A stretch of 64,000 bases of DNA from NCBI GenBank assembly GCA_030583865.1, contig CP129479.1, positions 1,376,744 through 1,440,743 of the forward strand. Direction: 5' to 3'. Made by a program: the position numbers and the translations under genes. A model generated the notes under the pieces. The model made no database searches. It was not told the origin of the DNA and saw only the letters and a list, made by a program, of their open reading frames with translations. Position 1 is the first letter of the stretch. Each line of letters opens with the position of its first letter. Origin of the DNA: Thermodesulfobacteriota bacterium (GTDB taxonomy: Bacteria > Desulfobacterota > GWC2-55-46). Positions 22,032 through 24,673 of this stretch are shown here, in pieces.

Positions 22032-24332
<2,301 letters not shown>

Positions 24333-24414
24333 CTATCGCAAGCGGTTGTCAAAGAGTTTGCTTCCGGGCTGCGCCTATCCGGACTCGGCCCTGCCCCCCG
24401 GGGCGGCACGGCAT

Positions 24415-24474
24415 AAAAAAACCGCCAAGGCAAAAGATGCGGGTCTTCAAAACCCGAGTCAATTGCCCAGACGG
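24415..24474 (-). terminator. Expression-platform terminator of the ZTP riboswitch
   Basis: The twelve bases CCGTCTGGGCAA (24463-24474, minus strand), which form the 3' end of the aptamer, pair with TTGCCTTGGCGG (24422-24433) with one U-U mismatch. Seven U's follow directly (24415-24421). An inner hairpin (CGGGT and ACCCG, 24440-24456) fills the loop. Ligand binding should hold the 5' strand in the aptamer and prevent termination, giving an ON switch. Confidence 0.87.
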
Positions 24475-24540
24475 TCGGCCTTCATATTCGGAAACCCCGC
24501 TCCCCGGTGGTGCCCACCTTGATTCCGTCAGTTACGGGAT
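24464..24540 (-). promoter_or_regulatory. ZTP/ZMP riboswitch aptamer (pfl motif)
   Basis: Read on the minus strand, the conserved pfl-motif blocks appear in order: ACTGACGG, AAGGTGGGCACCACC, GGGGAGCGGGGT, a short variable linker, then CCGTCTGGGCA. P1 forms between ATCCCGT (24534-24540) and GCGGGGT, including the U-G closing pair. The usual GGCG/CGCC pairing is replaced by GACGG/CCGTC, a compensatory change that supports a functional fold. The class senses the purine intermediates ZMP/ZTP that signal low 10-formyl-tetrahydrofolate, and is usually found before purH, folD, fhs or glyA. Here the next gene is icd, 215 bp downstream. The rest of the 24249-24713 gap holds the promoter, this switch, an unexplained 166-nt leader and a CCTGGCAGGCTGCT repeat remnant (24546-24559). 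Confidence 0.92.
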
Positions 24541-24644
24541 TTTGACCTGGCAGGCTGCTGGTATATTTTGAGAGAACCTTTTTTCTAAAATGGTTCTCCC
24601 AAAGTTATTAGCAATCTGTTAAGGCCTATCTATAAGGCTTGAGA

Positions 24645-24673
24645 AGTGTAGGACAAGAAGGGGTTTTTGTCAA
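24645..24673 (-). promoter_or_regulatory. Promoter of the riboswitch-icd-aclB-aclA transcript
   Basis: Consensus -35 TTGACA (24668-24673), 17-bp spacer and -10 TACACT (24645-24650) on the minus strand. Transcription from about 24638 would read through a GAGAACC/GGTTCTC hairpin and then the ZTP aptamer. It lies just after the stop of the HIT gene. Confidence 0.72.

Follow-up and report, generated by a model that had tools for sequence, protein, structure and literature searches.

ZTP riboswitches before TCA-cycle, Rnf and serine/purine operons in an uncultured class of Thermodesulfobacteriota

Why a ZTP riboswitch would stand before genes for isocitrate dehydrogenase (icd) and ATP-citrate lyase (aclB and aclA) is the question raised by the window, the whole stretch of 64,000 nucleotides analyzed here, in which a sequence-only reading had proposed this arrangement. 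ZTP has been proposed as an alarmone for 10-formyl-tetrahydrofolate (10-formyl-THF) deficiency, and its riboswitches have been linked with genes of purine and folate metabolism. PurH uses ZMP as its substrate, and ZMP accumulates when 10-formyl-THF is short. The ligand of the riboswitch was reportedly identified by Kim et al. in 2015. The genes reported under its control are purH, fhs, pfl, glyA, folD and further purine/folate genes (PMC2864571, PMC7266159).

The window was searched with the Rfam covariance models (cmscan, Rfam 15), and two matches in total exceeded their thresholds: one tRNA and RF01750 (ZMP-ZTP). The RF01750 match lies at 24545-24458 on the minus strand, which is the strand of icd, and scored 57.2 bits (E = 1.2e-6 for the whole window) against a gathering score of 39 bits, with an alignment spanning the full model, 1-86. 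The riboswitch proposed from the letters alone is thus borne out by the family search. The interval first given for it, 24464-24540, falls inside the match but is slightly short at both ends. The conserved blocks follow each other in the RNA as ACUGACGG ... AGGUGGGCACCACC ... AGCGGGGU ... GGCCGACCGUCUGGGC. The features of the locus are listed in Table 1.

Table 1. Features of the leader and the icd-aclB-aclA operon in the window
Feature	Position	Strand	Evidence or remark
Sigma-70-like promoter TTGACA-17-TACACT	24645..24673	minus	-35 at 24673-24668, -10 at 24650-24645
Extra perfect hairpin GAGAACCATTTTAGAAAAAAGGTTCTC	24572..24598	minus	Between promoter and aptamer; single copy in the window
ZMP-ZTP (pfl) riboswitch aptamer, RF01750	24458..24545	minus	57.2 bits vs 39; covariation in P1, P2, P3 and pseudoknot
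Pseudoknot 5' strand GACGG	24525..24529	minus	Partner CCGTC at 24474-24470; covariation
Pseudoknot 3' strand CCGTC	24470..24474	minus	Doubles as part of the terminator 5' arm
Intrinsic terminator (predicted)	24415..24475	minus	Fold; 5' arm ACCGUCUGGGCAA (24475-24463) inside the aptamer
Spacer from terminator to icd	24249..24414	minus	Only a weak candidate for a second promoter in this genome
icd, monomeric NADP-dependent isocitrate dehydrogenase, 738 aa	22032..24248	minus	TIGR00178 1372.6 bits, cut-off 950
aclB, ATP-citrate lyase ATP-grasp/citrate-binding subunit, 440 aa	20631..21953	minus	PF16114, PF08442; PDB matches
aclA, long ATP-citrate lyase subunit, 906 aa	17735..20455	minus	Domain resemblance

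The structure was tested on an alignment of 53 aptamers from this genome and its relatives, including two sister-class RNAs. When P1, P2, P3 and the pseudoknot were taken together, 97.3% of cells were paired and two-sided changes were found at 10/19 pairs; none of 500 shuffled controls scored as high, and sliding the helix partners by 1-3 columns made the pairing collapse. The GACGG/CCGTC helix, which had been described as covarying, is the pseudoknot of the aptamer. It was paired in 98.9% of cells, and a compensatory change was seen in it, A18-U75 in the window's class against G-C in the two sister-class RNAs. Across the 53 aptamers, the core columns of the Rfam consensus did not vary. A chance match was rejected on the Rfam score and the covariation, and these measures mark the RNA as an ordinary member of the ZTP riboswitch family, in which the purine/one-carbon target set is usual and not defining for membership. 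Inserted hairpins or long inserts interrupted some aptamers of the class (loci L199, L186, L245, L209, L210 and L212); hairpins of the ACACC/GGTGT kind recurred in L186, L199 and L245, resembling an inserted repeat element.

The expression platform and the aptamer's 3' part are coupled through a strand of P3 and the pseudoknot. The 5' arm of the predicted terminator pairs with UUGCCUUGGCGGU (24433-24421), and a U7 run follows at 24421-24415. This arm is the aptamer's own P3 strand, so the terminator excludes the formation of P3 and the pseudoknot, and vice versa. In the lowest-energy fold of the leader, the terminator forms and P3 does not. RF01750 shares with this RNA the aptamer sequence, the helices, the pseudoknot and a terminator that reaches into the aptamer's 3' part; as read from the sequence, the layout is that of a standard ON-switch. 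Such terminators at ZTP aptamers have been described and ligand-induced expression was predicted (Weinberg 2010, PMC2864571), and two further papers describe readthrough favoured by ZMP/ZTP binding for ZTP riboswitches generally (PMC7266159, PMC7337938). Nearly every locus had a terminator invading P3, at a constant offset. In a shuffle test it gave at most 2/200 in 82 of 102 loci, this locus being at 2/200. The scan was limited to 60 nt and thus missed the leaders of sucCD, which have the same terminator arm with a longer loop.

The promoter upstream of the aptamer is strong, with 10/12 hexamer matches and a spacing of 17. A near-consensus promoter 5' of the aptamer beat shuffles in 26 of the 35 icd or acl leaders with enough sequence, and the distance from promoter to aptamer was mostly 42-63 nt in icd leaders of the class. 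This distance is about 70 nt longer in this genome and in genome G001 than in other relatives. The extra hairpin is possibly an insertion.

If another promoter after the terminator mainly drove icd-acl, the intact riboswitch would hardly matter for icd. TTGACA promoters do occur between the terminator and icd in several relatives, the spacer promoter being better than shuffles in 4 of 33 leaders, and in genome G061 (L245) a strong downstream promoter lies beside a degenerate aptamer of 40.6 bits. Control therefore need not be complete everywhere, since escape is possible in relatives with such sites. In this genome, however, the best site for a promoter of icd's own in 24249-24414, the stretch where the sequence-only reading had located it as an objection, had 8/12 hexamer matches and was equalled by 20/100 shuffles, and we found none convincing there, whereas the upstream promoter is the stronger one. 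The icd aptamer and terminator were also kept in 22/22 testable genomes of the window's family. We consider it improbable that a spacer promoter makes the riboswitch dispensable.

The genes downstream on the same strand follow in the order icd, aclB, aclA, as had been described. For aclB, PF16114 scored 71.7 bits against 26.8 and PF08442 was also matched; the structure-database matches were PDB 6hxq_B (citryl-CoA synthetase) and 6hxi (citrate lyase). The N-terminus of the aclA product is clearly succinyl-CoA-ligase-alpha-like. Its C-terminus gave a weak citryl-CoA-lyase match (E 6.6e-10, below cut-off), the Pfam citrate synthase family gave no report for this protein, and its predicted structure had a pLDDT of 35, too low for use. 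On these matches aclA is an unusually long and divergent ATP-citrate lyase subunit. Like the type II ATP-citrate lyase of rTCA autotrophs (PMC5459899), the enzyme is encoded by two genes, one for a citrate-binding ATP-grasp subunit and one for a CoA-ligase-like subunit that may also contain the citryl-CoA-lyase-like part found in type II, and it is probably of type II, with aclA here reaching 906 aa and the assignment made by domain resemblance and not by a tree. The shared strand, the upstream promoter, the overlapping terminator and the same arrangement in 34 class genomes support icd-aclB-aclA as the target operon of the putative switch.

The genes behind the riboswitch in relatives, whose listing the sequence-only reading had suggested, were surveyed in 63 genomes of the uncultured class, including this one. 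A ZTP match was present in 47/63 genomes. The 101 in-class sites were assigned by coordinates and gene calls (L121 was read separately), and the targets were named by family searches. The arrangement with monomeric icd recurred at 34 sites in 34/63 genomes, comprising 22/22 testable genomes of the window's family and 12/22 testable genomes of other families, and an assembly oddity was rejected on this recurrence. Ten class genomes had no intact aptamer at a testable icd start; in three of these a degenerate copy or a remnant was present. In genome G051, the riboswitch was followed by a eukaryote-type NADP-dependent isocitrate dehydrogenase (TIGR00127, 571 bits), which is non-homologous to monomeric icd, and then by aclBA (1 site); in G040 it stood directly before aclBA (1 site). 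Four sites preceded sucCD, with korABC next where the contig was long enough (G051 and G057). Other surroundings of icd were seen as well. In the icd leader of L238 (G032), which was without ZTP, a strong hairpin GTCAGTCTCTA...TAGAGACTGAC and a T run lay between promoter and icd and are perhaps a different attenuator, and in L243 (G050) and L244 (G053) the order was reversed, with icd directly after the end of an aclA-like gene and without leader or ZTP.

Known RF01750 targets are purine/folate genes, whereas in the window's class the targets were TCA-cycle enzymes (40 of the 101 sites), Rnf or transhydrogenase (34), ion transporters (6) and serine/purine operons. rnfCDGEAB accounted for 30 sites and pntAB for four, one of them through a pyrophosphatase gene; class V aminotransferase-serA-hisZ-purA accounted for 20, and Na+/H+ exchangers for five. 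One site ended at a contig end, and purH, fhs or glyA were targets at none of the 101. This genome has three sites, before icd-acl, before rnf and before aminotransferase-serA-hisZ-purA, so the usual purine/one-carbon target is represented in the same genome by the serA/purA operon and not by icd-aclBA. The finding is thus, as far as these assignments go, larger than first noted, extending to sucCD-kor, Rnf, transhydrogenase and serine/purine operons, and it suggests that the class places much of its CO2-fixing cycle and of its electron supply under the same sensor.

Individual sites of these kinds were also inspected. At L213:1-6588 (G000:C1:1522919-1529506) the riboswitch preceded a complete rnfCDGEAB operon, likewise in 29 relatives, and we found no paper on a ZTP riboswitch before an rnf operon. 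At L214:650-5880 it was followed by an operon of class V aminotransferase, serA, hisZ-like and purA genes, the aminotransferase being closest to BhcA, below cut-off. The sites before an Na+/H+ exchanger family protein (L128, L166, L175, L179 and L181) belonged to one genus (g10), and one site in G051 preceded the K+ transporter gene kup.

Outside the class, 7 genomes in an even sample of 297 genomes from the phylum had a ZTP match. The sister-class riboswitches (L216, L217, L218, L221 and L222) have the same aptamer core as those of the window's class but, unlike the one before icd-acl, precede glyA (G268 and G116), fhs (G155), serA (G151) or a class V aminotransferase (G253); G101 gave no clear target and G121 was left out of the reading. 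No icd or acl stood behind ZTP among the sister-class loci examined. Since the targets there are the usual ones, the unusual targets are a feature of the window's class. A model built for this analysis was run on 80 icd loci, those of the closest icd relatives; none from other phyla had ZTP before icd, and the only matches were L033 (intact) and L034 (relic) of the same class.

Targets so unlike the textbook set, together with the fixed A-U pair in place of G-C in the class pseudoknot, could indicate that the class aptamer senses another metabolite than ZMP/ZTP, such as a compound connected with the rTCA cycle. This is highly improbable: the consensus core did not vary in the alignment, the Rfam score exceeded the threshold by a wide margin, these genomes also carry this RNA in front of serA and purA, and the core is shared by sister-class aptamers whose targets are glyA, fhs and serA. 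We retain ZMP/ZTP as the likely ligand.

In a quick maximum-likelihood tree of Icd, the monomeric enzymes of the class formed two main clades separated by sequences from other phyla, ZTP leaders occurred in both clades, and the starred branches forced at least 3 changes of the label; the tree was a short search without bootstrap and is indicative. The two ZTP-bearing clades and the unrelated isocitrate dehydrogenase in G051 suggest that the link survived changes in the IDH gene or arose anew around them. Losses were seen as well. The icd leader of G054 has kept the promoter and AACTGACGGAATCAAGGTG, the 5' half of the aptamer, and has lost the 3' half and the terminator. The model found this relic weakly (19.2 bits); AACTGACGGAATCAAGGTG occurred only twice in 2.5 million bases on both strands, the other occurrence being an intact ZTP riboswitch. 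Together with the degenerate copy in G061 and a possible aptamer remnant in G045, this relic explains some of the ZTP absences as loss.

The metabolic content was checked family by family. In the 63 class genomes, purH was present in 59 and 2-oxoacid:ferredoxin oxidoreductase in all, and RuBisCO was found in none. This complete genome has no formate-THF ligase (fhs) and so lacks the formate route; the enzyme was over cut-off in 28 other class genomes, so that serine as the only one-carbon source fails for some. Citrate synthase is also encoded in this genome, and the cycle may therefore run oxidatively at times. The content fits an rTCA autotroph also able to run the cycle oxidatively; the reductive direction, which we infer, is likely in this genome.

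We consider it quite probable that the RNA is a transcriptional ON riboswitch of the ZTP class, by which a signal of one-carbon shortage induces icd-aclB-aclA and the operons of its supply line. The aptamer, the terminator overlap, the promoter, the operon order and the class-wide recurrence enter this mechanism from the sequence; we infer the direction of control and, from the family's known ligand, that 10-formyl-THF shortage controls acetyl-CoA flux. RNA polymerase would start at the promoter at 24673-24645 and transcribe the aptamer. If ZMP or ZTP is bound, P3 and the pseudoknot would hold ACCGUCUGGGC and transcription would read through into icd-aclB-aclA. If the ligand is absent, the ACCGUCUGGGC strand would pair with UUGCCUUGGCGGU and transcription would end at the U run. 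Because ZMP builds up when 10-formyl-THF is low, the same signal would switch on the cleavage of citrate and the reductive synthesis of isocitrate. Across this genome and its relatives it would also induce 2-oxoglutarate synthase with succinyl-CoA synthetase, the electron-carrier enzymes Rnf and transhydrogenase, and serine synthesis with purA. The physiological reason may be that these steps form one pathway, in which carbon and reductant from CO2 would lead to serine, one-carbon units and then purines. In the most likely reading, ZTP as a sign of too little 10-formyl-THF induces flux through the reductive TCA cycle, the supply of reducing power and the synthesis of serine.

The riboswitch could also work as described with over-reduction as the signal. 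If 10-formyl-THF is made by FolD only, from methylene-THF and NADP+, a high NADPH/NADP+ ratio would lower 10-formyl-THF and raise ZMP/ZTP, and the induced reductive IDH, KOR, Rnf, transhydrogenase, Na+/H+ exchange and K+ transport would dispose of or rebalance reductant. The Rnf, Pnt and ion-transport targets fit this at least as well as one-carbon demand, which explains those 34 and 6 of the 101 sites indirectly, and FolD is the expected route to 10-formyl-THF in this genome, since it has no fhs. However, many relatives with fhs keep the same switch, and serA and purA in the regulon fit one-carbon and purine demand better. Over-reduction is a live rival as the signal, though we regard it as rather unlikely, and one-carbon shortage remains our preferred reading.

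The RNA is known and its regulon appears to be undescribed in the literature searched: we found no papers linking a ZTP riboswitch with isocitrate dehydrogenase or Rnf (an earlier listing in Kim et al. 2015 is possible), and nothing relevant on a riboswitch or ZMP with the reductive TCA cycle or carbon fixation. The regulation of the reductive TCA cycle is, to our knowledge, little known. If our reading is true, the switch would be a metabolite-level controller of this cycle and a ready-made sensor for work with autotrophic hosts, and the unrelated IDH swapped in behind the same RNA would be a clean natural test of selection on the link. With the class-wide regulon, the reach of ZTP as an alarmone would come to include redox balance and central carbon fixation. 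More tentatively, at somewhat less than an even chance, ZTP may be a master inducer of autotrophic metabolism throughout the class, covering the rTCA cycle, Rnf/transhydrogenase and serine/purine synthesis, with 10-formyl-THF possibly reporting NADPH/NADP+ and not one-carbon supply alone.
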